From: Gammaproteobacteria bacterium
GTDB lineage: Bacteria > Pseudomonadota > Gammaproteobacteria > JAJPIJ01
Direction: 5' to 3'
NCBI GenBank assembly: GCA_022071965.1
Contig: JAJVIQ010000023.1
Coordinates: 1-64,000 of the forward strand
DNA: 64,000 nt
Positions 48,697 to 64,000 of this stretch are shown piece by piece. Made by a program: the position numbers and the translations under genes. Below the pieces are notes generated by a model. The model had not been told where the DNA came from. It saw only the letters and a program-made list of their open reading frames with translations, and ran no database searches. Position 1 is the stretch's first letter. Every line of letters starts with the position of its first letter.

Positions 48697-48828
48697 ACGG
48701 TAGGCTGGCCTCTGCAATGAATCATACCGCAATTCATTCCGGCTGCCGGGCGCCGTTCATGGCGGATCGGCCCCGTTGCGCCGGACGTGCGACCCGCTTC
48801 CCGGCGGCCCGGCCCGCGGGTCGGCATC

Positions 48829-50679
48829 ATGATTGGAACGATGGAATCGCTACCGGATTCGCGCTGGAGTAAACGGCGGCGTCCGGCGACCAGCCTGGTG
48901 CTGCGCTTCGTCGCCCGGTACGAGAACGTGCTGCTCGGGGCGATGCTGCTTTTCCTGCACGTCGCCACCTCCTGGGGTTTCGCCAGTCCCCTCTCACGCT
49001 CGTTGATGCTCGTGCATCTCGGGCTGTTCATGCTGTGGCAGCCCATCTGGCGCGGTGACCGCCGGCTCGACCTCGTGGACGCGGCCGTGTTCATGGCTTT
49101 CACCACCGGCTTCGTCATGCTGTTGAACGGCTGGCTGCTGGCCTGCTGGCTGATCCTCATCATCGGCCTGGTCGGCGGCCGCACGCTCACCTCGCAATCC
49201 GAACGCCTCGTCTACATGCTGACGCTGCTGTTCCTCATCTCCAAGCTGCTGGTGGTCGTGGTGCCGCTGCTGTTCCCCGCGCGCAGCATGCCGGAGACTG
49301 TCACCTCGATATTCCTCTATGGGCTGCTCCTGCTGCCGATGGTGATCGCCGCCGTGCGATCGGGGCCGGCCGGAATGCGCAGCTCTCACTCCGTGGATCT
49401 CTTCCGCGGCGTGACCGCCTCGCTGATGGCGGCGCTGGTCGCGCTGGGCAGCGTCGTCACGATGTATCGAAACGACGCCGACTACACCGACGCCCTGATA
49501 GCGGCCAGCCTGGCACTGGGCGCCTTCCTGTTCGCGATCAGCTGGCTGCTCACCCCCGGCACGGGCGCGGGCGGACTGGCTGCCCTCTGGGAGCGCTCGC
49601 TGCTGAACATCGGCACGCCGTTCGAGGAGTGGCTCGCGGACCTCGCCGACATCGCCGACGAGCAGCGCACCCCCGCGCAATTCCTTACGGCGGCGATGCG
49701 TGCGCTGGTCGGGCTGCCGTGGGTGAGTGGCGTGGAGTGGGAGGCCGAGGAGAGCGAGGGCCTGGCCGGCCAGCGCACGCGCCACGCCATGGATCTGAAC
49801 ACCCCCGGCATCTCGATGCGGCTGTACGTGCGGCGCGAGCCCAGCCCGACGCTGCTGCTGCACGGCAGGCTGCTGGTGCAGCTGCTGGGACACTTCCATA
49901 TCGCCAAGCAGCGCGAGCAGGAACTCTCCAGGCAGGCGCATCTGCAGGCCATCTACGAGACCGGCGCGCGCGTAACGCACGACATCAAGAACCTGCTGCA
50001 GTCGCTGCAGACGATGACGCTGGTGATCAGCCAGGAGCAGGCGACGCTGAAGGACGGCGAGCGCCGGCGCTCGGTGCGCACGCAGCACTTCATCGAGCAG
50101 CAGTTGCCGGTGGTGACGCAGCGGCTGCAGCTCGCTCTCGACAAGCTGCAGTCGCCCACCAAGGTAGGCCTGGAACAGCAGCCCCTCAGCGCGTGGTGGG
50201 ACGCCCTGCAGGCGCGGCACCAGGGGACCGGGGTGGAGCTGCAGGGACGTATCACCCGCGACCCGCTCGTGCCCGTGGACCTGTTCGACAGCGTGGTCGA
50301 GAACCTGCTGGAGAACGCGCGCCAGAAGCGGCAGCTCGAGCCGAACGTGGAGTTGAGCGTGGTCATCGAGAGCGGCGAGTCGGACCTGCGGGTGACGGTC
50401 ACGGACAGCGGCGAGCGCGTGCCCGATGACATCGCGCAGGGACTGCTGCGCCGGCCGGTGCCCTCACGCACCGGGTTGGGGATAGGGTTGTACCAGTCCG
50501 CCCGGCAGGCGGAGATGCTCGGCTACGTGTTGACGCTGGCTCACAACGAGGACGGGTTCGTCAGCTTCGAACTGCGCCGGCGGCCGGACCTCTCCGCGAC
50601 CGATCAATACAGCCTGTTCGTGGGAGAAAGTGGTGGCCGTACTGCGGATGGTCGGGGAGGAACGGTCCCCGGCCAATAG
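48829..50679 (+). CDS. integral-membrane sensor histidine kinase
   Basis: The 616-residue protein has an N-terminal half with some seven transmembrane helices and no periplasmic domain, a poorly defined cytosolic linker (GAF-like in size), then a DHp motif with H384 in GARVTHDIKNLLQSLQ and an HATPase: N496 in ENLLENARQKRQ, the DSGERVPDD G1 region and GLGIGLYQS. The HDIKNLLQ type resembles the PrsK-like kinases of PEP-CTERM exopolysaccharide regulation, but this is only a resemblance. No response regulator lies beside it. ATG 48829 (or 48841) is the start. Confidence 0.85.
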   Translation: MIGTMESLPDSRWSKRRRPATSLVLRFVARYENVLLGAMLLFLHVATSWGFASPLSRSLMLVHLGLFMLWQPIWRGDRRLDLVDAAVFMAFTTGFVMLLNGWLLACWLILIIGLVGGRTLTSQSERLVYMLTLLFLISKLLVVVVPLLFPARSMPETVTSIFLYGLLLLPMVIAAVRSGPAGMRSSHSVDLFRGVTASLMAALVALGSVVTMYRNDADYTDALIAASLALGAFLFAISWLLTPGTGAGGLAALWERSLLNIGTPFEEWLADLADIADEQRTPAQFLTAAMRALVGLPWVSGVEWEAEESEGLAGQRTRHAMDLNTPGISMRLYVRREPSPTLLLHGRLLVQLLGHFHIAKQREQELSRQAHLQAIYETGARVTHDIKNLLQSLQTMTLVISQEQATLKDGERRRSVRTQHFIEQQLPVVTQRLQLALDKLQSPTKVGLEQQPLSAWWDALQARHQGTGVELQGRITRDPLVPVDLFDSVVENLLENARQKRQLEPNVELSVVIESGESDLRVTVTDSGERVPDDIAQGLLRRPVPSRTGLGIGLYQSARQAEMLGYVLTLAHNEDGFVSFELRRRPDLSATDQYSLFVGESGGRTADGRGGTVPGQ

Positions 50680-50681
50680 AG

Positions 50682-50758
50682 TTGCACTTTGCCGGCCCGT
50701 GCCACTGCCTCGGTGAACAGGAGTGCACTTGCCGGTCCGGGCCACTGCATTGGCGAAT
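50682..50758 (+). repeat. imperfect tandem repeat, two ~37-bp copies
   Basis: Just after the kinase stop, TGCACTTTGCCGGCCCG... (50682-50718) is repeated as TGCACTTGCCGGTCCGG... (50723-50758) with a period of about 41 bases and a shared GCCACTGC core. No function is seen; it may be a relic duplication or a short regulatory repeat. Confidence 0.55.
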
Positions 50759-50806
50759 CTTGCAAGGGACTGTTCGCCGGAAGTGGAGCGCCCGGATTGT
50801 GACGCA

Positions 50807-51535
50807 TCACGGCAGCCGCCCCGCGGAGATGAGTTTTTCGAACAGCACCGGCCTCGAGATCCATATGGTCAGATCGTCGAACGTGGCGGTCGGCGTACCT
50901 CCCGTGTAGATCGCGTTGGGCGTTCCGTTCGCATCAGGATCGCCGTCCGTGTTCTCGGCATCGGCTGCAATGCCGGCGCCGTCGTCGTCGGCATTCGAAG
51001 GACCCGTGGAGTACACGATCGCAACGGGCGGCTCCGTGCCGGACGATAGCACGTTTCCGGCAGCGTTCCTGACGACCAATAGCGTGCCGCTGGTCGCAAC
51101 CGTCGTCAAGGCAATGGCCTTCACGCTGTTGCTGAAATTGGGATGAACGCGAAAGCGCAAATACCCTGACCAGTTGTCCGCCGCCGCGCCCCTTGCGCGA
51201 CCCCAGGCATCGAACTCCACGAGTCCCAGCGTGCGCCAGGGCAGCAGGCCCGAGTCCAAAGGACAGCGCCCCGCAACTCGCGCGTCTTCTTCGCCGTACT
51301 GCGCGCTCGATGGATCTTCCTCAGTGGACGGGCAGGGCAGGTAACCATATGCCGCGGCATAGCCGAGCAATGCCTCGCGACCGTCCTCCAGTATCTGCTC
51401 GGTCTGGCCGCGGTTTCGCTGCTCCATCTGCGTCCGCAGCGGATACAGCACACCGCCCAGCATGATCCCGATGAGCACAAGGACGACGGCGAGCTCGATG
51501 AGCGAGAATCCGGATTCGTTGATGGTTCGTTCCAT
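50807..51535 (-). CDS. type IV pilin-like protein with LPCP motif (1)
   Basis: A 242-residue protein with a class III prepilin signal: a short leader, cleavage after G9, then FSLIELAVVLVLIG with Glu at +5 and a hydrophobic helix. The globular part has LPCPSTEED, GLLPWRTLGLVEFDAWG and a disulfide pair (PCP and GRCPL). It is the second gene of a minus-strand pair; the start is 21 bases after the stop of the larger pilin-like gene. It is probably a minor pilin/pseudopilin assembled by the MSHA-type machinery. Confidence 0.82.
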   Translation of the reverse strand: MERTINESGFSLIELAVVLVLIGIMLGGVLYPLRTQMEQRNRGQTEQILEDGREALLGYAAAYGYLPCPSTEEDPSSAQYGEEDARVAGRCPLDSGLLPWRTLGLVEFDAWGRARGAAADNWSGYLRFRVHPNFSNSVKAIALTTVATSGTLLVVRNAAGNVLSSGTEPPVAIVYSTGPSNADDDGAGIAADAENTDGDPDANGTPNAIYTGGTPTATFDDLTIWISRPVLFEKLISAGRLP

Positions 51536-51556
51536 GTTCCACCACTCCCGAGGTGA

Positions 51557-53143
51557 TCAAGGCCAAACAGCACGCAGGAAATCGTTGCTCTGTTCCGTTC
51601 TCTGAGCGGGCACATAGGCATCGTCGGCGTCCGTGTTCTGTTCGCTGTCGAGAAGATCACAGACGTTGGAATCGGCAGTGGGCCGTACCTGATCACGTGT
51701 GATGCCGTTGCAGGCGGTCGCCGGTAGGGGCGCGCCCGCCGCGGCGACCAGCGCGCCGATGCCTTGGTTCTGTCCGAGGATGAGTTGTGGCTCGGCCGCG
51801 CAACCCGCTCCGTCCGGCGGCGCGCGGCATTGCTCCGACAACGAGTAATAGATCAACTGTTCCCAGTCATTCGCGTCGAACCACGTCGGCAGACCTGACA
51901 GGCTGTTGTTGGCGTGCTGACTCGTCTGCACGCTGCACGCGCCCTCGCCGGTGCATGCGCACTTCGTAGTGAAACCCTGCGGCTGCCCCGGAGGCGGCAA
52001 TGCGCACGCCCCGCTGCTGCCGGTGAAGACGGCCAGCCCCCCCTCCCTCCGGACGGAGAGCTGTGTGGGCGCCGCGCTGACGATGCACGCGTCGGTGCCG
52101 GTGCCAGTGCATACGCAGGAGCTCGACCCGGCCGCCTTGCAGATGCCCGGGACAGCGTCATCGGAGAAGATCACGGTATTGTCGGTGAACTCGTACCTGA
52201 CAGTCCCCCCGGTGCAGGTGCAGGAGAACTCGCTGGTCGCTTGGAGGTATCTGCATTGGCAACCGTCTCCGGCAGGATCCAGTGGCAGCGCCCCGCGCCG
52301 AAGTCCTTGCCAGCCGACACGATGAGGACCCTCCATCCCCAGGAGCGAGGCATAGGGAAAGTATCTCGCCGCAGAGGTCGAGGCGCTGGCCTGATAGTAA
52401 CGGCGCAAAGCCTCGCGCGCGGTGCCGGCAACTCGCTTTTCCACGACGGCCATCAGCTCCGCTCGCGTTATCGCAACCAACCGATCATTGAAGTCGCCGG
52501 ATGCGCCGCTGACGAAGACTTTGTCGTTCGGGGTGGCCGTCTCGCCGTTTTCGCCTTCGAGATAGTTGCGGACGTCGTTCGCATTGGCAGCATTCCGCAC
52601 CTGGGAACCGACCGGCTCGCCCGGCGCGATGATCACGGCTACGACATCACCTTGCCTCTCGATTGCAAGGTCGCCGGGGGTCTGGCTGTTCAGGGGAACG
52701 GTGTAGATCCCGCCGCCCTGGTGAAAGCTGTAGTTGTCGGCCACCGCGTACCACAGGCGCTCGCCGGCGCTGTCGCGAAGGTCGGACAGTCCCAGGTATC
52801 GCCAGGGGAGTCGTCCCACCGTTCTCGCCGTGACACTCTTGCTCGAGCACGAACCCTCGGTAAGTAGTAGCCCATCGTTGTTTCGGTCCGGGCACGGCAG
52901 GAACCCCGGGCCGCGGGTGGGGTTGATCAAATCCGGGTAGGCCGCCGCGTAGCCGAGCAGGGCCTCCTTGGCCTGGGCGAGCGCGGCCGCGTCGTGTTGC
53001 AGCCGATGCGCGCGGATGGCGCCGAGGCCCCCGTTCAGGCCCCTCAGCAGCGTGAAGGACCCCGCCAGGGTGACGAACAGCAGGACGAGCAGCAGCACCG
53101 CGCCGCCCTGCCTGCGTGAGGGGATTGGCGTCGTAGCCGACAT
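51557..53143 (-). CDS. PilX-like pilin-like protein with LPCP motif and CxCTG repeats
   Basis: The 528-residue protein has a PilX/GspK-like N-terminus: a basic start, then GGAVLLLVLLFVTLAGSF with no Glu at +5. ALLGYAAAY and LPCPDRNNDG with RLPWRYLGLSDLRDSAG (82-125) match the neighbouring pilin. A Cys-rich block at 295-403 holds CQC and three CxCTG motifs (308, 343, 395), an unusual insertion that could form disulfide knots or carry ligands. It is long for a minor pilin. It may cap the pilus tip; that is inference. Confidence 0.75.
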   Translation of the reverse strand: MSATTPIPSRRQGGAVLLLVLLFVTLAGSFTLLRGLNGGLGAIRAHRLQHDAAALAQAKEALLGYAAAYPDLINPTRGPGFLPCPDRNNDGLLLTEGSCSSKSVTARTVGRLPWRYLGLSDLRDSAGERLWYAVADNYSFHQGGGIYTVPLNSQTPGDLAIERQGDVVAVIIAPGEPVGSQVRNAANANDVRNYLEGENGETATPNDKVFVSGASGDFNDRLVAITRAELMAVVEKRVAGTAREALRRYYQASASTSAARYFPYASLLGMEGPHRVGWQGLRRGALPLDPAGDGCQCRYLQATSEFSCTCTGGTVRYEFTDNTVIFSDDAVPGICKAAGSSSCVCTGTGTDACIVSAAPTQLSVRREGGLAVFTGSSGACALPPPGQPQGFTTKCACTGEGACSVQTSQHANNSLSGLPTWFDANDWEQLIYYSLSEQCRAPPDGAGCAAEPQLILGQNQGIGALVAAAGAPLPATACNGITRDQVRPTADSNVCDLLDSEQNTDADDAYVPAQRTEQSNDFLRAVWP

Positions 53144-53770
53144 GGCGGCTGGACTAGGACGGTGGTCAAGTATGGCCCAAGTGGATCCCCTCGTTCCCGC
53201 GACTGGCCCCAGTCGCCCTTCGAACCTCGGGCAGGGACCAGCCAGGGAACGAGAGATCCGGTCCGGAACTAGTCCGCCCGCGCCCTCAGCGCGGAACTGT
53301 CCAGTTCGCGCACGGCGCTAAAGCGGAGAACTACACGGGGAGCAACTGGGAGTGTCATAGGCGTCCTTTCCTTAAAGGCATATCCACGGGGCAGGTCCTC
53401 TGCCGAGATGAGAAAAATACCGACGCACACCGGTCCCGGCCACGAGGAGGAATCCAACCTGCGCGCTGATTCACAATCGCGAGAGTCCTTTGGCGCCACC
53501 GCCAGTCTCTGGCTAACCTTATGCTGACTCCACATGCGACGAGTCCAGGTTTCCGCCATCAGGTGCTCCGAGGAACGGTGACCTTTCGTTCCATCAGCCG
53601 GACGGGCAGGGACCGAAAGGCAATTGCGGGTCTTCGTGGCGATCAGCACCCGCCAAGTTGCCGCGCCTCCAAGAATCTGCGGACCTCTCCTAACCTATTG
53701 GTTTTTCGGTACCTCGGATCAATCAGATGGAGTAGACTTATGAATTAAGGGGTATCGAGGAAATCACCAC
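53144..53770. other. unexplained intergenic block between divergent pilin pairs
   Basis: About 630 bases with intermediate GC (roughly 55-60 %). A 126-codon open frame on the minus strand (53269-53649) has no ribosome binding site and an odd Ser/Arg/Lys-rich composition, so I do not call a gene. The region must contain both promoters. The ribosome binding site GAGGAA before the next gene lies at its right end. Confidence 0.5.
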
Positions 53771-54949
53771 ATGCAACGGTTCGCACATCGTCAGCGCCAT
53801 GCTGGGTTTACGCTCATTGAGCTTGCCGTCGTTCTGCTCATTGTGACCATCCTAATTGCTCTGGGCATTGGTGCGTTCAGTACGGCGATTCGTGCAAGGC
53901 ACTACACGACCACTGCGGTGCGGATTGAATCCATTCGTGATGCGCTGTCAAATTACCTTCGAACGCATCATCACCTCCCATGCCCGGACAGAGATTTCAA
54001 CGCCCCCGACGGCGAAGGCGAAGAGCACCGTGTGACGCCGGGTGACGCTGCTACTGCCTGCCCCCCCCAGAACTTTGGGATTGTGCCATTCCGAGACCTC
54101 GGAATTAATCGAGACGACGCTCTGGACGGATGGGACAACTTCTTTTCGTACAAGGTTTCTAATGTCAATCTCTCTGTCCCGCCCCCAAGGACAAACAAGA
54201 ACTGGACAGTTTACTCGACCAACGACGCTGTCAATGAGATGTGGGTCGGAAACGATGGGGCATTATCGGATACTGGCGGGGCTCTCGGAAGCGGAGTAAC
54301 AAATGCGGTCGTTGTCATCATTTCGCACGGACCTAATGGATACGGCGCATATACCACCGCAGGCACACGAAACGTCTTGCCAACCGCAGCCGATGCGGCT
54401 CTGACTGACGAACAAGTTAATACGACAGTAGGTTTAAACTTCGTTGATCGCCCAGCTACCGACGTGCCGCCCGCTGGCGGAGGCGGAACGTTCGATGATG
54501 TCGTCAGCAGGATGCTACCCCTAGACCTGCTAGCTCCCTTGATCAAGGACGGTTCGCGGAAGTCTGCCGACGGTCTATTGGAAGAGCTATTTGCTCAGGA
54601 AAGATCGGTAATTGTTGGACAGATTCTCGCTGGCGTCGATTATGCTTCCGGCCTATGCTCCGATGGAACCGCACCTCCGTGCACCCCCCCAGCAAGGCAG
54701 GAGAATACCTATGACCTTCCGCCAAGTGGGTTACTACAAGCAAGGGATCCGTGGGGTATGCGGCTTGAGTACATCCAGGACACGGGCAACATTGCGTTAA
54801 CCGATCCTTCCCCCCCACCACCGCCCCCGGTGAATGCGTTTCGCATACGCTCTTTTGGGCCAGATCGGATGCAGGGCAACGCAGATGATAAAGTCACTAT
54901 CATGACCGTGGATGAACTTCGAGGGATCCTCGGTAAGACCGGATTTTAA
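53771..54949 (+). CDS. type IV pilin-like protein with LPCP motif (2)
   Basis: The 392-residue protein has a class III signal (cleavage after G12, then FTLIELAVVLLIVTILIALG, Glu at +5). The body has ALSNYLRTHHHLPCPDRDF and VPFRDLGINRDDALDGWD, the same motif as the two minus-strand pilin-like proteins. A Pro-rich run (PSPPPPPPVNAF) precedes the C-terminus. GC content is clearly lower than the neighbours, with codons such as TTA, CTA and ATA. It has a ribosome binding site (GAGGAA) before ATG 53771. Confidence 0.85.
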   Translation: MQRFAHRQRHAGFTLIELAVVLLIVTILIALGIGAFSTAIRARHYTTTAVRIESIRDALSNYLRTHHHLPCPDRDFNAPDGEGEEHRVTPGDAATACPPQNFGIVPFRDLGINRDDALDGWDNFFSYKVSNVNLSVPPPRTNKNWTVYSTNDAVNEMWVGNDGALSDTGGALGSGVTNAVVVIISHGPNGYGAYTTAGTRNVLPTAADAALTDEQVNTTVGLNFVDRPATDVPPAGGGGTFDDVVSRMLPLDLLAPLIKDGSRKSADGLLEELFAQERSVIVGQILAGVDYASGLCSDGTAPPCTPPARQENTYDLPPSGLLQARDPWGMRLEYIQDTGNIALTDPSPPPPPPVNAFRIRSFGPDRMQGNADDKVTIMTVDELRGILGKTGF

Positions 54950-54954
54950 GTGCC

Positions 54955-55635
54955 GTGATAACGCGTACGCGGTCCAAGAATCATGAGTTCGGCTTCACTC
55001 TCGTCGAATTGGCCATTGCTTTAGTCATCATTGGCCTGCTCCTTGCGGTGGTGCTGCGCGCCACAGTCTTTGTGCCGAAAGCACAACTCAAGGAGCTGAT
55101 GAGTATCGCCAATCAACTAAAGGTTGCCGTGAGTACCTTCAAGCAAACGTACCATATGCTCCCTGGTGATATGCCAAACGCCACCAATGAGTTTCAGAAT
55201 TTGATGGGCCTTCCAAATTCAGACGACGAAATCCTTGGCACAACGGACTGCAATTACTCCGGCGGCTCGAGCGGTAATGGGCTTATAGGTGATGGTGGAA
55301 GCGAGATCGACTGCGTGATGGTGCATCTCAATCGTGCAGGCTTGATTGTCGATGGCGCGATGGCTGGAGCAATCTTACGCCGATACCAGAACGAAAAGAT
55401 AAAGATCTATGTCGTTGCCTTTCGCAACTCGCAATTCGGGCTCAATGCAGCGGCGGACGCACGGTATGTATTAGGCAATCAAAGGCCACAGCATGTCGTG
55501 GAGTACCGGAAACTCCCGCTGGATTTTGCAAAAGAGATAGACCGCAATATTGATGACGGTATTCTGACTTCGGGGAAAATCCAAGCTATCGACGGAGTCT
55601 CCGATCCAAGCACCCTGATCATTCCTTTGAGTTAG
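54955..55635 (+). CDS. type IV pilin-like protein with LPGD motif
   Basis: The 226-residue protein has a class III signal (cleavage after G13, then FTLVELAIALVIIGLLLAVVL, Glu at +5). The globular part starts YHMLPGDMPNATNEF, a motif common in pseudopilins of gammaproteobacteria, and has two Cys residues (TDCNYSGG and DCVMVHL) that may pair. A GTG five bases after the previous stop is the start; there is no clear ribosome binding site, so coupling to the upstream gene is likely. GC is low (45 % in the 60 bases from 55141). Confidence 0.82.
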   Translation: MITRTRSKNHEFGFTLVELAIALVIIGLLLAVVLRATVFVPKAQLKELMSIANQLKVAVSTFKQTYHMLPGDMPNATNEFQNLMGLPNSDDEILGTTDCNYSGGSSGNGLIGDGGSEIDCVMVHLNRAGLIVDGAMAGAILRRYQNEKIKIYVVAFRNSQFGLNAAADARYVLGNQRPQHVVEYRKLPLDFAKEIDRNIDDGILTSGKIQAIDGVSDPSTLIIPLS

Positions 55636-55864
55636 CTGGGAAAATGCGATCACTCCAGATCAGCACCAGCCCCAGTTCACTCCCGGCGTCAGAACCGATG
55701 CCGTGCCCGCAGTGTCAGTCGGTGGTCAAATCACACCGGGCACTACACATCGAGGATCGAAATCCGTATCTGTCCGAGAGTTCTTGTTTCCGCTGCGATG
55801 CTTTCGCGACGGTCGAATTGTTACCTCACTTGAGGGCAGCGCGACGAGCGCAACCGATTCAATC

Positions 55865-56398
55865 TCACGGAGATTGTGCAGCGGCGTCGATGATGGTATT
55901 GGTGCCGGGGTCGTAGGTCTGGCCGGGTTTCAAAGTCACGTCGGGCAGGTGCTCGGGGGTGATGATGCGCACCGACTCGCCGCGCGGGCGGACGACGCGG
56001 ATGTTCTCGCGGCTGAAGTCGCCCTCCAGCGTGTTCTGGCCGTTCACCCATGCGGTGCTCTCGCCGTTGGAGCGTATCACCACGCCGTTGACCGTGATCG
56101 GCGGCACGATCGGCGGCGGGGCGGGCGGCAGCATTTCTTCGCGTGACAGCTCGGTCACCGGCGGGGGCAGATCGGCCTCGACCACCGGTGGCGGAGCGGG
56201 CGGCGTGACGGGTGCCGGCGGCGCGTGGCGCAGGCGTTCGAGCTCGACCCTCTGCTCCGGCGTGAGAAAGAAGCGGCCCAGCGGTTCCGCGGCGGCGGCC
56301 GGGTTCCAGGCGCTGGCGGCGGCCATCGACAACGCGAGGAGCATCCCCGCGCCCCCGGCGTTGATGCATCGCATCGAATTCCCGTCCCGTCGCGTCAT
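55865..56398 (-). CDS. mshK: PilP/MshK-like pilus assembly protein
   Basis: A 177-residue protein at the end of the assembly operon. It has a signal-like N-terminus (MLLALSMAAASAW), a Pro-rich linker (HAPPAPVTPPAPPPVVE) and a C-terminal domain with ITVNGVVIRSNGESTAWVNG and DVTLKPGQTYDP, the MshK/GspC-like pattern of periplasmic secretin-binding pilot segments. The ATG overlaps the upstream stop by ATGA. Confidence 0.75.
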   Translation of the reverse strand: MTRRDGNSMRCINAGGAGMLLALSMAAASAWNPAAAAEPLGRFFLTPEQRVELERLRHAPPAPVTPPAPPPVVEADLPPPVTELSREEMLPPAPPPIVPPITVNGVVIRSNGESTAWVNGQNTLEGDFSRENIRVVRPRGESVRIITPEHLPDVTLKPGQTYDPGTNTIIDAAAQSP

Positions 56399-57030
56399 TG
56401 CTTCAGCGCCAGCCCCTCGCCGGGGAGATTGAGCGTGTACCAGTCGAGACTGCACGCTGCCTTGATATTGTCCGCCTTGGGCTCCATGCGGATCTCGGGA
56501 CTGGTTCGCGACATCGTGCACTGGCTCACGCTGTAGAGGCCCGTGGCGTTCCTGTTCAGGTCGTCGAGAAGGGTCGCAAGGTCATATTCATGCAGCAGGC
56601 CCAGATCGAGCTGCATCCTGGTCGTGTACACCGTGAAGCCGCCCTTGTCGACATTCGACAGATATGGCGGAGCGACCGGTTCCTGCGAGTTGATCTGGTA
56701 GCGCAGGCTCGGCATCCGTATCGACGCACCCGCCGCGCGCAGGGTCTCGAGCCAGTTCAGTCGGTTCTCCCCGCCCAGCACGCCGCGGTCGCGCAGCTCC
56801 AGGAATCGCGGGTACATGTCGCGAATGATGCGCGCCTCGTCGTCGATCGACAGGTACCGCTCGCTGGTCTGGCGGAATTCCGCCTGGCTGGACTTGAAGT
56901 CCTGCTCATAGCCCTGCTTGAAGTGCAGGCTGTACCAGACCATGAGCGCGCCCACGACGCCGCACGCCAGCAACGCCAGCAGGGCGTCGCCCAGAAACCG
57001 CCAATCGACGTCAGCCTTCTTGATTGCCAT
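56395..57030 (-). CDS. mshJ: PilO/MshJ-like inner-membrane pilus protein
   Basis: The 211-residue bitopic protein has one N-terminal helix (LGDALLALLACGVVGALMVWY), a coiled-coil-prone part (QDFKSSQAEFRQTSERYLSI) and a C-terminal ferredoxin-like part with QLDLGLLHEYDLATLLDDLNRNATGLYSVSQCTMS, as in PilO-type proteins. It is inferred to be the periplasmic scaffold that links the platform with the secretin. It overlaps the next gene by ATGA and the PilM/PilN-like gene by 20 bases. Confidence 0.75.
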   Translation of the reverse strand: MAIKKADVDWRFLGDALLALLACGVVGALMVWYSLHFKQGYEQDFKSSQAEFRQTSERYLSIDDEARIIRDMYPRFLELRDRGVLGGENRLNWLETLRAAGASIRMPSLRYQINSQEPVAPPYLSNVDKGGFTVYTTRMQLDLGLLHEYDLATLLDDLNRNATGLYSVSQCTMSRTSPEIRMEPKADNIKAACSLDWYTLNLPGEGLALKQ

Positions 57031-58633
57031 TGCTTTCTATACCCATCACGAGGCGTACCGCGAAATCGGCGTTGGTCGCATCGAGTCGGTCCTCGGCGGA
57101 GCCCTGCAGACTGCCGCTGGAATCGACATTCAGCGGGCGCCTGACGACCTCCACCCTGTAGGCCCGTCCGGACTTGCGCAGCGCCTCGGCGAAGCCGTCT
57201 ATCAGCGCCAGGGCTTCGCGATAATCGCCGTCGAAGGGTGCGATGTGGCCCTCGATATCGGCGATCTGATAGTAGAGATAGCTCTTCGCCCCGGGCTCGG
57301 CCGGCAGCGGCATCGCCTCGGCCGGCGCTGGCGGGGTGCCCGGTCCCGGTGTCGCATCCGGATCCGCCCCCGTGCGCCAGTCGAGCTTGTCCAACTGCAG
57401 CGAGGGGAACTGATCCAGCGCGTGGCTGATGAGACGCATGCTCTCCAGCGGACTGGATTTGTACTGCTCCAGCAGGTCGACGACGTTGACCGCGGCCTCG
57501 ATGTCGCGCGGACCCACGGCCGTGGGCGGCAGGCGCTTGTGGGCGACTTCGTACCGGGCGCGGTAGAAATCCGCCTTCCTGCTGGCCTCGATGGACTGCT
57601 GGCGCATCGACAGGCCCTGGATGAAATTCACGCCGCTCCAGATGGTGGCGCCAAAGAGCATGAGCGCCGCGGCCGCCAGCATCCCGAGACGCGTGCGATG
57701 CATGCGGTAATAGCGCGTCTGGTGCCGCGGCGCGTACTGGTTCTTCGGCTGGCTCTCGAGCAGCAGGTGCGCGAACACGACGTCGCTGTAAGGCGTCGTC
57801 AGCGCGCCGCTGATGCCGAGACGCTGGCCGAGATCGGCGACGTTCACCAGGTGGTAGCGCACGAGGTCCTGCGGCTTGGCCTGGTGGCGCAGCTCCCCGA
57901 TCAGGTTGCCGCCGGTGACAATGAATACGTCGATCGGCAGCTCCGGGCTGGCGAGCCGCAGGCTGACGAGGTAGCGCCGGAACTTGTCGAGCTCGCCGAT
58001 GATGTGCGGCCCGTAGGAGACCGACCCGTAGCGCGGCATCTTGGCCAGACGACTGACCTTCAGCGCATTGTCGTGCAGGAACGTCTGCCGCAATCCGCTC
58101 GCGCCGTGCAGTGTGACGAGCAGGACGTTCGCGGCCTTCGCATCGATGGCCGCGAGCAGCCGTTCGCTCAGCATCGGCAAGGAAAAGATCCCCGCCAAAG
58201 GCACCTTGTTGTCGGTGAACAGCCGGATGATCGGGTCGAGCTGATCCGGATTCGTCAGCGCCGTGAGCAGCAGACGATCGTCCTTGCGCCCCTCTTTCTC
58301 CCGCCCCTGGACCCTGGCGAACTGGTAGGGCGTGTTGCGGAACAGGCGCGCCAGCTTGCGATCGATGAGGGCACGGCGATCCCCGCCGCGCGCGTGCGGA
58401 ATCATGTCCTGCCGATATTCCTCCTCGACGACATCCACCACGAGGTAGACCGGGTGCGGGGGCGACTCCTCGAGGTAGCGTGCGAACTGCGCGAAGCCGG
58501 AATCGTTCGCCTCGAACAGGAAACCGTCCGCCAGGCCGCCGCCGCGCCAGTGGTACACCGCGATCTTGTCGCCGGTTATGAAGACCGCGCGGCGATCGAA
58601 GACGTCAAACCTTGATCTTAGAAATGAGGTCAT
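57011..58633 (-). CDS. mshI: fused PilM/PilN-like (MshI) pilus protein
   Basis: The 540-residue protein combines a cytosolic N-terminal domain of degenerate actin/PilM type (about 1-310, with DVFIVTGGNLIGEL but no clear phosphate motifs) and, after a single transmembrane helix (315-340), a periplasmic PilN-like half (FYRARYEVAHKRLPPT, LLEQYKSSPLESM and a C-terminal beta domain). MSHA operons usually have the two parts as separate genes, so this looks like a fusion. ATG 58633 is preferred over the upstream TTG 58645. It overlaps the platform gene by 29 bases. Confidence 0.75.
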   Translation of the reverse strand: MTSFLRSRFDVFDRRAVFITGDKIAVYHWRGGGLADGFLFEANDSGFAQFARYLEESPPHPVYLVVDVVEEEYRQDMIPHARGGDRRALIDRKLARLFRNTPYQFARVQGREKEGRKDDRLLLTALTNPDQLDPIIRLFTDNKVPLAGIFSLPMLSERLLAAIDAKAANVLLVTLHGASGLRQTFLHDNALKVSRLAKMPRYGSVSYGPHIIGELDKFRRYLVSLRLASPELPIDVFIVTGGNLIGELRHQAKPQDLVRYHLVNVADLGQRLGISGALTTPYSDVVFAHLLLESQPKNQYAPRHQTRYYRMHRTRLGMLAAAALMLFGATIWSGVNFIQGLSMRQQSIEASRKADFYRARYEVAHKRLPPTAVGPRDIEAAVNVVDLLEQYKSSPLESMRLISHALDQFPSLQLDKLDWRTGADPDATPGPGTPPAPAEAMPLPAEPGAKSYLYYQIADIEGHIAPFDGDYREALALIDGFAEALRKSGRAYRVEVVRRPLNVDSSGSLQGSAEDRLDATNADFAVRLVMGIESNGNQEG

Positions 58634-59810
58634 AAATCGGTCCAAGCACGGAGAGCATGACCCAGCCCAGCAGCACGCCCAACACCACGGTGATCCCCGG
58701 CCCCATCACTTTCTGCATGCGCTCGACGGCCTCCCTCACCTCGCGGGTGTAGAAGTAGCCGACGTTGGCCAGCGCCGTCTCCAGCGAGCCGGTGTTCTCG
58801 CCCACGCGCAGCATGCGCAGCACCAGCGGCGGAAAGAGGTCGGATTCGGAAAAGCTTGTGGCAATTCCCGAGCCCTCCGCCATCTGCTTGCCGGCGTTGA
58901 GCACCGCCTCTTCGACCGCCGTATTCCCCACGACCCCGGAGCTCAGCCGTATGCTCTCGAGCACCGTGATGCCGGAAGCGTACATCAGCGCGAAATTGCT
59001 GGTGAACCGGGTCAGGATGATCTTCTTGAGAATGGGACCGATGACCGGAAGATCGAGCTTGAAGGCGTCCCACCGGCGTCTGAAGGCCGGGTTCGTCCGG
59101 AGCAGCACCTGCATGACGATGACGGCCAGCACCGGTATCGCCAGGATCACGTACCAGTAGTTCGCGAACGCGTTCGACACGGCGATGAGGGCCTTGGTGT
59201 GCCACGGCAGCGTTCCGCCCATCGACTTGACGAACTTGAGCAGCTCCGGCACCACGTTCACCATGAGCACGACCACCGCGACGCCGACGACCAGCAGGAC
59301 CAGGCTCGGGTAGATGAGCAGCATCTTGATCTGGGCGGCCTGCTCGTCCTGCCATTTCAGATTCTCGCCGATCTCGTGCAGGACATGCGGCAGCTGACCC
59401 GCCTCCTCGCCGGCGCGCACCAGATTCACGAACGTGGTGTCGAACACGTACGGAAACTCGCTGAGCGCCTGGGAGAGGTTCTTGCCGCCCTGTATCGACT
59501 CGATGACGACGGCGATGACGTCCCTGAAGCGGGGATGCTCGAGCGAGTCGCGCAGATCGCTCAGTCCGTCCAGCATCGGCACGCCGGCGCGCAGAAGCTG
59601 CTCCAGGTGCACGCAGAAATTGATGAGATCCACGCGCTTGATCGGCCGGCCGCCGCCGCCGCGATGCTTGCCGCCGACCTTCCGGTAGCTGATGAGATCC
59701 AGGCCCATGCGCCCGAGGCGCGATTCCAGGTCGCTCGGGTTCATGGCGTCGAGGCGGCTGCGCTTGACGCGGCCCTCGGCGGTCATCGCCTTGTAGCGAT
59801 ACAGCTCCAT
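58605..59810 (-). CDS. mshG: type II secretion F-family platform protein (MshG)
   Basis: A 401-residue GspF/PilC-type inner-membrane platform protein: MELYRYKAMTAEGRVKRSRLDA start, two T2SSF domains (VHLEQLLRAGVPMLDGLSDLRDSLEHPRFR and FTSNFALMYASGITVLESIRLSSGVVGN) and three transmembrane segments. It binds the assembly ATPase. Its start shares one base with the mshE stop. It is long-conserved in type IV pilus and type II secretion systems. Confidence 0.93.
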   Translation of the reverse strand: MELYRYKAMTAEGRVKRSRLDAMNPSDLESRLGRMGLDLISYRKVGGKHRGGGGRPIKRVDLINFCVHLEQLLRAGVPMLDGLSDLRDSLEHPRFRDVIAVVIESIQGGKNLSQALSEFPYVFDTTFVNLVRAGEEAGQLPHVLHEIGENLKWQDEQAAQIKMLLIYPSLVLLVVGVAVVVLMVNVVPELLKFVKSMGGTLPWHTKALIAVSNAFANYWYVILAIPVLAVIVMQVLLRTNPAFRRRWDAFKLDLPVIGPILKKIILTRFTSNFALMYASGITVLESIRLSSGVVGNTAVEEAVLNAGKQMAEGSGIATSFSESDLFPPLVLRMLRVGENTGSLETALANVGYFYTREVREAVERMQKVMGPGITVVLGVLLGWVMLSVLGPIYDLISKIKV

Positions 59811-61516
59811 CAGTGGAGTCTCTCGGTCAGATCGACCACGCGCGAGACCTCGTCGATGCTGGTCACGCCCTCGATGACCCGCTTGCCGGCGGCATCGGCG
59901 AGGGGCGCGAAGCCCTTGGCCGTGGCGGTGGCGTCGATCTCGCTCAAGGTGGCGCTGCGCGCGATGAGGGCGTCGATCTCCCGATCGAACCGCAGCAGCT
60001 CCATCACGGCGATGCGGCCGCGATAACCCTGATTGTCGCAGTGTATGCAGCCCTTGGCGCGGTAGATGAGCGGCGGCGGATCGGTGGCGGTAATGCCCAG
60101 CACCCGCAGCTCCAGATCGCTCGGCTCGTAGGCCTCCTTGCACTGGTTGCAGAGCTTGCGCACCAGGCGCTGGGCGATGACGCCGATGATGTTGCCCGCC
60201 ATGATGTCCGGGCGGATGCCGAGATCGAGCAGGCGCGGGATGGCCCCCAGCGCGTTGTTGGTGTGCAGGGTGGCGAACACCTGATGGCCGGTCATGGCGG
60301 CGCGGAAGGCCATCGAGGCGGTCTCCTCGTCGCGCACCTCGCCGATGAGGATGATGTCCGGGTCCTGGCGCAGGATGGCGCGCACGCCGGTGGCGAAATC
60401 CAGCCGCACCGCCTCGTTGATGGAGGTCTGCCGGATCTGGCCCATCGGGTACTCGACCGGGTCCTCCAGCGTCATGATGTTGACCGTCTCGGTGTTCAGA
60501 TGGCTGAGCACCGAATACAGGGTGGTGGTCTTGCCGCTGCCGGTCGGGCCGGTCACGAGGATGATGCCCTCGGGCCGCGCCACCATGAGCCGCAGGCTGC
60601 CGAGCACGCTCTCCTCCAGTCCGAGCTGCGGGAGCTCCACCAGGCCCTTCTGACGATCGAGGATGCGCAGGACGAGGTTCTCGCCGTGAACCGTCGGCAT
60701 GGTCGAGACGCGGAAGTCGATCTGTCGGCCGGACAGCGAGAGCGAGATGCGGCCGTCCTGCGGCGCGCGCGTCTCGGCGATATCCATGCCGGCCATTACC
60801 TTCACGCGCACGGCGACGGCAGACCAGTATTTCTTGTGCAGGCTGCGGATCTGCCGCAGCACGCCGTCGATGCGATACCGGAAGCGCATGAAGCCCTGCT
60901 CCGGTTCGAGGTGAATGTCCGAGGCGCCGCGCTTGACGGCGTCGGCGATGAGGGCGTTGACGAGGCGTACGACCGGCTGACTGTATTCGCCGCTGTCTTC
61001 CTCGAGACTGGCGTAGTCGATCTCGCCGGTCTCGATCTCCTGGATGATGCCGTCGACCGAAAGCTCGAAGCCGTAGAACTGATCAATCGCCTTATCGACG
61101 TCCGCCTCGGTCGCAAGCAGCGGGACGACCTCCACGTCGCCGCCGAGCAGGGCGTTGATCTGATCGATGGTGACGACGTTCAGCGTGTCCGCCATCGCCA
61201 CGGTCAGGCGATTGCGGTTCAGCTCATAGGTCAGCGGGAGTATGCGATAACGGCGGGCGAAATCCTTTGGAATGAGGCGCACGGCCTCGCTGTCGACCAC
61301 GACCTTCGAGAGGTCGATGCTCTGCTGCCCGAGGGCGCCGCCGAGGACGTCGAGTACGACCGCCTCGGTCGCGAAGCCGAGGCGCACGAGGATCTTTCCC
61401 AGGTGTTCCTTCTGCTTCTTCTGCTCGGTGAGCGCGATGCGGATCTGGTCCTGGCTGATGATACCCTTCTGGACCAGCAACTCACCGAGACGGAGCGGCG
61501 TTTTCGTGGCATTCAC
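59810..61516 (-). CDS. mshE: MshEN-domain pilus assembly ATPase (MshE)
   Basis: A 568-residue GspE/PilB-type ATPase. The N-terminal MshEN c-di-GMP motif is exact at residues 9-32 (RLG.LL..G.I...QI..AL..Q), and a second, looser copy (HLGKILVRLGF) follows. Walker A GPTGSGKTTT, Asp box RILRQDPDI, Walker B ILIGEVRDEETA and the tetra-Cys zinc site (CNQC and CIHC) are intact. It powers pilus extension and should be activated by c-di-GMP. It starts with GTG, overlapping the TPR gene stop. Confidence 0.94.
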   Translation of the reverse strand: MNATKTPLRLGELLVQKGIISQDQIRIALTEQKKQKEHLGKILVRLGFATEAVVLDVLGGALGQQSIDLSKVVVDSEAVRLIPKDFARRYRILPLTYELNRNRLTVAMADTLNVVTIDQINALLGGDVEVVPLLATEADVDKAIDQFYGFELSVDGIIQEIETGEIDYASLEEDSGEYSQPVVRLVNALIADAVKRGASDIHLEPEQGFMRFRYRIDGVLRQIRSLHKKYWSAVAVRVKVMAGMDIAETRAPQDGRISLSLSGRQIDFRVSTMPTVHGENLVLRILDRQKGLVELPQLGLEESVLGSLRLMVARPEGIILVTGPTGSGKTTTLYSVLSHLNTETVNIMTLEDPVEYPMGQIRQTSINEAVRLDFATGVRAILRQDPDIILIGEVRDEETASMAFRAAMTGHQVFATLHTNNALGAIPRLLDLGIRPDIMAGNIIGVIAQRLVRKLCNQCKEAYEPSDLELRVLGITATDPPPLIYRAKGCIHCDNQGYRGRIAVMELLRFDREIDALIARSATLSEIDATATAKGFAPLADAAGKRVIEGVTSIDEVSRVVDLTERLH

Positions 61517-63360
61517 GGTGCACTTCCGCTCGCCACCGCGAGCGCCTGAATGCGTGACTGCGCGGCGACGGCGGCAAACCGCGCCGGACGCTGGCGCGCG
61601 AGATCGACCGCCTTGCGGTAGTGATCCAGCGCCGCTGCGTGCTGTCCGAGGTTGTCCAGGCTGACAGCCAGGTTGTAGGCCACGTCCGGATTGGTCTTGT
61701 CGCGCGTGAAGGCGTCGAAATAGGCCTGCTGCGCCTCCGGCCAACGCTGCTGGCGCGCATAGATGTTCCCGAGCACGAAGCGAAGCTGCGCGGACTCGGG
61801 CTCCCGGTGCAGCAGCAGCTTGACGGTGCTCTCGTCGACGACGGGATTCTTGTCCCTCTGCAGGGTGAGGAGGGCCGAACGCGCCGTGGCGTCGCTTGGA
61901 TTGGCCTGCAGCAGCCGCTGGTAGATGCCGGCCGCACCGGCCCGGTCGCCGCTGCGCCAGCTCAATGCCGCGATGCCGAGCAACGCGTCACGATTGCCGG
62001 GATAGCGCGCCAGTGCCGTGCGGTAAAGGGTCTCGGCCCGACCGTAGTCGCCGCGCTGGTACGCATCGTAGGCCTCCTGGACCTGGCCGGGGACGAACGG
62101 CTGCGTTGCGCGTGCGCGCGAGATGCGGATCTCCCCGGGCATGACGCTGCCATCCACGGCGGAGCTCACTTTCGGGGCGGGCAGCTCGGACTTCGGCTTT
62201 GGCGCCGGGGCCGCCTGCAGCCGCTCGACCTCCGCGGTGGAGGGCGGTTCGACCATGGCCGTCTGCACCGGGGCCTGGCGCTCGATCGCGGCCTCGGGGG
62301 CCGCTGGCGCAGGTGCGGCCGGGGCGGCCGATTCGCCCGGCGAGCCAGCCGCTGCCGTGGCCTCCGCCAGCGGCGCAGTCGGGGCGGGTGCCGGTGCCGC
62401 GGCCGGGGCTACCGCCGCCCCGGGGGCGGGCGCGATCGGTTCGGCGGGTACCTCGGCCTTTGGCTCCACCGCGGCCACGGGCTCCGCTGGCGGTGCCGGG
62501 GTCGGCTCGGCCGCCGTTACCGGTGGCGTCGGCTCCGTGGCCGCTGTCGTCGTGGCAGTCTCAAGCCGTGCGCCAACGGTCTCACCGGGCGCCTCGGCCG
62601 GCGGTGCGACCGACACGGGCGGCACTTCGACCGCCGGGGTGCGGATGGCCTCGACGCGCTGCGCCACCGCCGGCGGCGGAACGAGCTGCACTGAACGCGA
62701 CTGCGTATACCAGTAGTACGCGCCAACAGCCCCCAGGCCCGCCGCGGCGAGCAGGAGCAGGGAAGCTGCCGCGCTGAATGCCGAGCCGCCGCGTCCGCGG
62801 CGCTTGGCCGAGAAGACCGTCTGCGCGGTGATGGGGCCGGAGTCGGCGCCGACCGGCGCCGCGGCCTCGTCCTGAGCCTCGGCAGCCCGCGGGCCTTCAT
62901 ACGAGCGCGTCGGCTCGAAATACTCCTCGAGCGACCGCTTGAGCATGCGCCTGGAGGGGACCGTCGCATCGAAGTCCTGTTCGCCCTCGAACGCGCCGGT
63001 GGCCTCGTTGCGCCGCGGCACACCCAGGGCGTCGAAAACGTCGCGCTGCGCCGCCGTCAACCGCATCTTGGTGGTGTCGCCGAACGGCTCCGCCACCTCG
63101 CCGGTCGTCGTCCTGCTCCCGGGGGCCGTGGTGCTGGCCGGCTCCGCCGCCGCTCCCTCGATCGGCTCCAGACGCAGATTGTCCGCGGTGTGCTCGCCGG
63201 TCCGGCTGGCTGCCTCGGGGCCGGGGGTCTCCGGGGGGAATGTCGAGGCGAGCTGATCGGGCGCGGCCGCGCCGGCGGCGCCCGCCTCGCCTTTCTTTTC
63301 CAGGGCGGCGCGACGCTTTTCTTCTTCCGCCTTTCGCAACGCATCCATCAACAGACTCAT
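61513..63360 (-). CDS. mshN: MshN-like TPR protein
   Basis: The 615-residue protein begins MSLLMDALRKAEEEKRR, the typical start of MshN/GspB-type operon partners, then a long Pro/Ala-rich region and one transmembrane helix (about 196-217), a very long Ala/Pro/Glu linker, and C-terminal tetratricopeptide repeats (AYDAYQRGDYGRAETLYRTAL, LGNIYARQQRWPEAQQAYFDAF, LAVSLDNLGQHAAALDHYRKAV). It probably links the inner-membrane machinery to the secretin through the periplasm. It is 23 bases after the secretin stop. Confidence 0.85.
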   Translation of the reverse strand: MSLLMDALRKAEEEKRRAALEKKGEAGAAGAAAPDQLASTFPPETPGPEAASRTGEHTADNLRLEPIEGAAAEPASTTAPGSRTTTGEVAEPFGDTTKMRLTAAQRDVFDALGVPRRNEATGAFEGEQDFDATVPSRRMLKRSLEEYFEPTRSYEGPRAAEAQDEAAAPVGADSGPITAQTVFSAKRRGRGGSAFSAAASLLLLAAAGLGAVGAYYWYTQSRSVQLVPPPAVAQRVEAIRTPAVEVPPVSVAPPAEAPGETVGARLETATTTAATEPTPPVTAAEPTPAPPAEPVAAVEPKAEVPAEPIAPAPGAAVAPAAAPAPAPTAPLAEATAAAGSPGESAAPAAPAPAAPEAAIERQAPVQTAMVEPPSTAEVERLQAAPAPKPKSELPAPKVSSAVDGSVMPGEIRISRARATQPFVPGQVQEAYDAYQRGDYGRAETLYRTALARYPGNRDALLGIAALSWRSGDRAGAAGIYQRLLQANPSDATARSALLTLQRDKNPVVDESTVKLLLHREPESAQLRFVLGNIYARQQRWPEAQQAYFDAFTRDKTNPDVAYNLAVSLDNLGQHAAALDHYRKAVDLARQRPARFAAVAAQSRIQALAVASGSAP

Positions 63361-63383: not shown

Positions 63384-64000
63384 TCACTGACACCAGTCGC
63401 CGTGGCACACGCGGTTCTGGTCGCAGCCGGGATCATCCCGGTAGCACGGCGGCTGCTGGCCATTCAGCGGTGGCGGAAATCCCTGATCCGGCACCGGCGA
63501 CAGGTACTGGTTGTAGTCCTTGAAGTCCCCCTGCAGGCCCGGGTTCTTGATGACGGTCGGGCGCAGGAATATGACCAGCTCGCTCTTCGCGTACTGGTTG
63601 TTCCGGTACTTGAACAGCTCTCCCACGCCCGGGATGCTCTGCAGGCCCGGTGTGCCGTCGGTGGCGATGTCGGTGCTGTCCTGCATCAGTCCGCCGAGCA
63701 CGGCGGTCTGGCCGCTCGGCACCTTCAGAAGCGATTCGAGCTCACGGGTCTGAATGATCGGTATCTGATTCGCCGGCAAGCCGACGGTGATCGGTGCCGG
63801 ATTGGGATCGGTAGCGAAACCGTTGATACGCGAAATCGTCGGGCGAACGTTGAGCATGACCGTGTCATCGGAGTTGATCTGAGGCGTCACGTTCATCACC
63901 AGGCCGACCGCCACGGAGTGGGGAGTCGTCGTCACCGTGGTTGTCGTCTGGTTGGTATTCTGGGTGGTGTCGGCCTCGATGGTGAAAAACACCTGATTGT
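63384..64000 (-). CDS. mshL: MSHA-type secretin (MshL), C-terminal part
   Basis: About 205 residues of the C-terminus; the gene continues past the right edge. The secretin domain is recognised by VGLVMNVTPQINSDDTVMLNVRPTISRI, then LLKVPSGQTAVLGGLMQD and GVGELFKYRNNQYAKSELVIFLRPTVIKNPG. It forms the outer-membrane pore for the pilus. An unusual Cys-containing tail (CYRDDPGCDQNRVCHGDWCQ) follows the usual end; it may be a lineage-specific extension. Confidence 0.88.
   Translation of the reverse strand, partial: NQVFFTIEADTTQNTNQTTTTVTTTPHSVAVGLVMNVTPQINSDDTVMLNVRPTISRINGFATDPNPAPITVGLPANQIPIIQTRELESLLKVPSGQTAVLGGLMQDSTDIATDGTPGLQSIPGVGELFKYRNNQYAKSELVIFLRPTVIKNPGLQGDFKDYNQYLSPVPDQGFPPPLNGQQPPCYRDDPGCDQNRVCHGDWCQ

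Follow-up and report, generated by a model that had tools for sequence, protein, structure and literature searches.

Gene content and organisation of the locus

The window is the whole stretch of DNA analysed here; it makes up bases 1-64000 of a contig of 65509 bases, from a genome of 3.56 Mb. Its right end is occupied by a minus-strand assembly operon, mshL-N-E-G-I-J-K (Table 1). Two plus-strand pilin genes, P1 and P2, face this operon and are convergent with it, as the original prediction had stated. Just left of them lie pilX and pilH (50807-53143, minus strand), which have near-normal G+C and were absent from that prediction. The names pilX, pilH, P1 and P2 were coined here; the msh letters were assigned from gene order and family matches.

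Table 1. Features at and around the low-GC block (positions in the window)
Feature	Position	Strand	Basis and remarks
Sensor histidine kinase, accompanies pilX-pilH loci in relatives	48787..50679	+	HATPase_c; weakly PrsK-like (40 vs cut-off 300); synteny
Native pilH, 242-aa pilin	50807..51535	-	PF07963 25.3 bits; groups with G002 and G003 pilH; GC3 0.76
Native pilX, 528 aa	51557..53143	-	Homologue directly 3' of mshK in relatives; GC3 0.79
Low-GC inserted block, between mshK and pilX	53300..55865		Left edge approximate, right edge is mshK stop codon; GC profile in 100-base steps, synteny, tetranucleotides
P1, 392-aa type IV pilin-like protein	53771..54949	+	PF07963; homologues in G136, G131, G307, G055
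P2, 226-aa pilin	54955..55635	+	PF07963; 34 % to own C37 pilin; P2 tree
mshK, last assembly-operon gene, adjoins insertion site	55865..56440	-	Synteny; weak T2SSB-like match below cut-off
mshJ	56395..57030	-	Synteny
mshI, source of machinery tree	57011..58645	-	Synteny, tree
mshG, inner-membrane platform protein	58605..59837	-	T2SSF family, GspF-like
mshE, extension ATPase with MshE-type c-di-GMP motif	59810..61512	-	NF053729 60.3 bits vs cut-off 38; MshEN domain
mshN, TPR protein	61513..63360	-	TPR families
mshL secretin, 3' part; gene continues to C17:65390	63384..64000	-	Full length TIGR02519 262 vs 250.2 bits

The secretin and the ATPase carry MSHA signatures: MshL scores above the TIGR02519 cut-off, and the N-terminal MshE domain is found both by NF053729 and by PF05157 (66.4 vs 23.1 bits). 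The GspF-like match of mshG is below the equivalog cut-off, and the model lists hold no MshG profile. There is no mshM gene between mshL and mshN, and the contig ends 119 bases past the mshL frame.

P1 and P2 are intact open reading frames, with the P2 start 5 bases past the P1 stop codon. Both products have the type IV prepilin leader, with Glu at +5 and a hydrophobic helix (PF07963, 26.4 and 29.1 bits vs cut-off 21.2). P1 is 32 % identical to the native PilH, and this kinship suggests a minor or initiator-type pilin. P2 is, by sequence comparison, homologous to the free-standing major-type pilin of the system. The latter is encoded on contig C37 of the same genome (L107:2245-3000), unlinked to the operon; it has a GC3 of 0.87, is near-identical in the sole congener, and is probably the normal major pilin. 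Structures predicted from shallow alignments have a mean pLDDT of 44.9 (P1) and 48.3 (P2), with appreciable confidence mainly in the N-terminal helix. Plasmid and phage collections searched with P1 and P2 gave no match, nor did an Rfam search of positions 50500-57000.

Composition and codon use

The low-GC island is genuine and sharp. It was proposed on the basis of two 60-base counts, 27 G+C at 55141-55200 and 45 at 43981-44040, both of which are exact. The G+C of 53771-55635 is 0.536; among 1153 windows of equal size (step 50) elsewhere in the 64,000 bases, the mean is 0.681 (sd 0.023, minimum 0.631), giving z = -6.35. The shift covers both pilin genes, as claimed, but its extent is slightly wider than was thought: the dip starts near 53300, includes the intergenic regions 53144-53770 (0.596) and 55636-55864 (0.568), and extends to about 55865, where mshK has its stop codon. 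GC3 is 0.55 in P1 and 0.58 in P2, compared with a mean of 0.854 (sd 0.042, minimum 0.73) in the 45 other called genes, a set which may include two or three shadow frames. The tetranucleotide profile of the 2.5-kb block correlates with that of the window at 0.543; none of 242 other 2.5-kb windows, taken from 141 kb of the same genome, is as low (mean 0.943, minimum 0.631).

A match of codon use to highly expressed genes had been named as a possible reason to abandon the cassette proposal. Measured against the ribosomal gene cluster, the codon adaptation index is 0.349 for P1 and 0.396 for P2, compared with 0.669 ± 0.083 for 80 genes (minimum 0.358); the composition is therefore not accounted for by high expression. 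Nor is it by pilin nature as such, since five other pilin-like genes of the genome have a GC3 of 0.74-0.87 and a sixth, on contig C6, has 0.70. The C6 gene lies in a second low-GC pilin neighbourhood of this genome, where two adjoining TPR-containing genes (632 and 637 aa; L125:1166-5617) have a GC3 of 0.60-0.61.

It should be noted that native pilins of related operons can also be AT-rich and diverge rapidly. The native pilX and pilH genes of G002 and G003, and of G157 and G267, have a GC3 of 0.54-0.68. Between G157 and G267, mshG is 97 % identical and pilX 32 % (pilX GC3 0.58 and 0.64). The excess divergence of pilins correlates with their GC3 deficit (Spearman 0.81 over 13 comparisons, which are drawn from 5 genome pairs and are non-independent). 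Either pilins are generally exchanged between lineages, or loose constraint causes both divergence and low GC. Low GC alone is thus weak evidence for acquisition; the case for it is made by the synteny and the tree test.

Insertion site and synteny

In related operons, pilX and pilH usually come immediately after mshK and share its strand. In the window, P1-P2 lies directly after mshK in inverted orientation and separates it from pilX-pilH. Both genes can be seen at 19 loci, and pilX adjoins mshK at 16 of them (G002, G003, G014, G031, L085, L087, G157, G215, G243, G094, G251, G267, G200, G369, G248 and G343); A-type loci in which mshK was unrecognised or the contig was cut (L068, L074, L078, L080, L088 and L158) fall outside this count. 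The three interrupted loci are the window's own and those of G136 (L109) and G370 (L124), and each has an inverted P1-P2 pair after mshK. G136 and G370 are members of one genus in a family other than that of the window. The contiguous set includes G002 and G003, from the family of the window, and G369, G248 and G343, from that of G136. The cassette of G136 is also G+C-poor: P1 and P2 have a GC3 of 0.67 and 0.70, compared with 0.91-0.96 for most of the machinery and 0.87 and 0.91 for the native pilins.

The presence of the same genes in all close relatives would have spoken against a cassette exchange; G002 and G003, the family members with the site in view, lack P1-P2. The sole congener, G001, says nothing on the site because its contig breaks inside mshN. 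Its mshL is 95 % identical, and a look at both ends of its 21 largest contigs, apart from the far end of C14, did not locate the remainder of its site. Loss of the operon from G001, which has no match to mshI or P1, is ruled out by that mshL together with the break inside mshN. In Undibacterium seohonense (L083:13986-15867), two minor-pilin-like genes are convergent to mshK with no drop in G+C; this locus was not scored as a cassette, as its gene groups with a pilH-type protein.

The block does not resemble a classical integrative island: there is no tRNA, no end repeat of note and no integrase-like ORF, and scans for repeats, tRNAs, promoters and terminators revealed no sign of an insertion event around it.

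Gene trees and turnover at the site

The machinery and the cassette have separate histories. In the mshI tree, the operon of the window is sister to those of G002 and G003 (96/96), and G136 and G370 are placed with their own family. A constraint that unites the three cassette-bearing loci in one mshI clade lowers the log-likelihood by 75.8 units and is rejected (p-AU 0.00015). The P1 and P2 proteins of these loci nevertheless lie close to one another in their trees, next to those from a Herminiimonas MAG (L081) and from G131 (L110). In the latter two operons, P1-P2 comes right after mshK in the same direction and constitutes the operon's own pilin set. When more sequences are sampled, support for the P1 grouping is weak (72/41 in one tree, 88/59 in another), and the P2 tree does not unite all three loci (G136 with G370, 99/99). 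Within the three, P1 of the window branches with that of G370 in one tree (93/86), and the order is not settled in two others. Given the weak P1 grouping and the divided P2 tree, two acquisitions from related but different sources appear more likely than one shared cassette. The P1 clade is distinct from pilH, and the native pilH falls inside the pilH clade (97/87); the P1/pilH tree with the 93/86 placement omitted five L120/L121 rows, rows of 150 residues or fewer, and rows with no recognised leader motif. The C37 pilin groups with those of the congener and other relatives, apart from P2.

Variable pilin content at a fixed site was to be looked for in related genomes, and it is seen between the congeners G136 and G370, in the other family. 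Their mshG, mshI and mshJ are 92-96 % identical, the kinase 93 %, pilH 85 % and pilX 78 %, whereas P1 is 33 % and P2 45 % identical. DNA outside the block is 84-95 % identical, and blastn of L109:8063-11193 against L124:6505-12093 (from mshK to the genes upstream of pilX) found no similarity. As native pilins diverge fast in place, part of this contrast could be rapid evolution.

Other genes share the block in these genomes. In G370, ParDE, Phd antitoxin and Uma2-family genes lie between mshK and P2 (L124:6505-8433), in the same block as P1-P2. A PEP-CTERM-like ORF is found upstream of P1 in both (L109:10440-11180 and L124:11173-11913, 30 % identical); it has a VPLPA tail in L109 that scores below cut-off, and no counterpart was found in the window.

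P1-P2 in other genomes and on a phage

Of 398 genomes searched across the phylum, 32 (own genome included) encode P1-type proteins at E 1e-25 or better; 29 of the 32 lie outside the class, and a genome often has several. Loci were fetched for 15 of the 16 strongest among 54 places besides the window. P2 is directly beside P1 in 12 of these 15; it is absent in two, and one stretch ends too soon. Most of the fetched pairs in other classes have no msh gene within the stretch examined. In L081, L110 and L148, however, P1-P2 lies directly after mshK on the same strand. By its distribution the pair is a travelling module, which occurs as the operon's own pilins, in multiple copies in other classes, and on one phage.

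On the phage, the pair comes after the last of the structural genes (L176:10001-11609, IMGVR_UViG_3300047477_000152). The IMG/VR contigs L176 and L177 are identical over 15402 bases and were counted as one phage. Its P1-like (282 aa) and P2-like (188 aa) genes follow the virion structural genes and precede genes for DNA ligase and dCMP deaminase. The products are 30 % (P1) and 33 % (P2) identical to those of the window over the aligned parts. The phage P1 has a long branch and is nested within the P1 clade (97/97); the phage P2 is unplaced in its tree. Five scans of viral contigs recovered only this phage, with the other matches amounting to the leader motif alone or nearly so, and the phage pair had no match in the phage collection.

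Probable origin and proposed role of the cassette

We consider the island to be an acquired two-gene pilin cassette, inserted inverted 3' of mshK, which adds a subunit set that the resident machinery could use (probability about 0.77). Its abnormal composition, its intact genes, its site, its absence from related loci, the separate histories of cassette and machinery, and the turnover seen elsewhere all point to acquisition. The proposal of a cassette exchange beside conserved machinery therefore holds for an acquired cassette at a fixed site but not for the exchange: the native pilX-pilH and the unlinked C37 pilin are retained, which makes this an insertion, or addition, in this genome. A minor-type P1 and a major-type P2 would have entered immediately 3' of mshK, probably by recombination through conserved flanks. 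P1 may help to start a filament that P2 builds, with assembly by MshE, MshG and MshI-L, and this would give the cell a second pilus surface alongside its native subunits. P1 and P2 would act as alternative filament subunits. Selection may have come from phages or from attachment surfaces; phage or host pressure behind the cassette is only suggested.

The pair could instead be an old vertical resident lost in most relatives, with its low GC resulting from loose constraint on pilins. It occupies the same site in the same orientation in two families, and several relatives have AT-rich, fast-evolving pilins. This reading is unlikely, as several independent losses would be needed on the mshI tree, on which a single holder clade is rejected; the other pilins of the genome are not comparably AT-rich, and the congeners G136 and G370 share no alignable DNA in the block. 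Much less probable still is an origin of P1 and P2 by duplication of pilin genes already in the genome, namely pilH and the one on C37. The identities of 32 % and 34 % are what suggests it, and the trees, in which neither native gene groups with its supposed copy, reject it. An invertible segment that switches pilin expression is the least credible of the explanations. The orientation is opposite to that of the operon in all three loci, but it is also the same in all three, and neither a long inverted repeat bracketing the block nor a recombinase-like ORF within it was found.

Acquired genes might also be silent cargo, or might work for the cell's type IVa pilus or its type II secretion system rather than for the MSHA machinery. 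A consensus scan upstream of P1 found no sigma-70-like site, further type IV filament loci exist in the genome (L072, L073, L125), and most fetched pairs in other classes have no msh neighbour. Against this, the frames and leader motifs of P1 and P2 are intact, and the three same-strand loci (L081, L110, L148) pair the module with such machinery elsewhere. We regard this as unlikely, and use by the MSHA machinery as the better account. A broader and rather speculative extension is that P1-P2 is a mobile filament coat, travelling partly by phage and acquired at the 3' end of mshK, whose altered surface would exclude phages that bind the pilus. On this view, the position after mshK would receive interchangeable pilin pairs, in inverted orientation, in different bacterial families.

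Comparison with known systems

In Pseudomonas and Neisseria, the replacement of pilins beside constant machinery is already known (PMC11841053, PMC4023411). The literature searches made for this analysis listed no paper that describes P1-P2, whether at an MSHA locus or on a phage. That phages can carry pilins is in itself no novelty, since PHROGs already has a pilin family in the category moron (PHROG 3433), which the proteins of the window match weakly. The phage described here is like these in carrying pilin genes; it differs in having P1-P2 itself, placed behind a run of structural genes.

The locus resembles an MSHA locus in its MshL and MshE signatures above curated cut-offs, its single msh operon and its free-standing major pilin elsewhere; in the published MSH model, mshA is treated as a loner and MshM is mandatory (PMC6668835). 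It differs in the inverted foreign P1-P2 between mshK and the native pilins, and in that mshM is not seen between mshL and mshN.

In Pseudomonas aeruginosa, cassettes of pilin and accessory genes (the pilin island) likewise place a variable pilin beside conserved machinery, and the authors suggest that some pilins were possibly acquired horizontally to evade phages (PMC11841053). Here, no accessory gene or tRNA adjoins the pair, the pilus is of the MSHA type, and the native pilins are retained. Class II pilE of Neisseria meningitidis is also a pilin of likely horizontal origin served by conserved machinery; the class I and class II genes have distinct contexts and were never found together (PMC4023411). 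In the window, by contrast, the foreign pair has joined the native pilins at a single site. The locus offers a comparative case of an MSHA-type filament whose subunits would be replaced two genes at a time at one defined place, with the motor itself passed on by descent. Unit, site and genomes for testing such turnover are now named, and the same pair on a phage ties the re-skinning of the pilus to phage pressure in a testable way.
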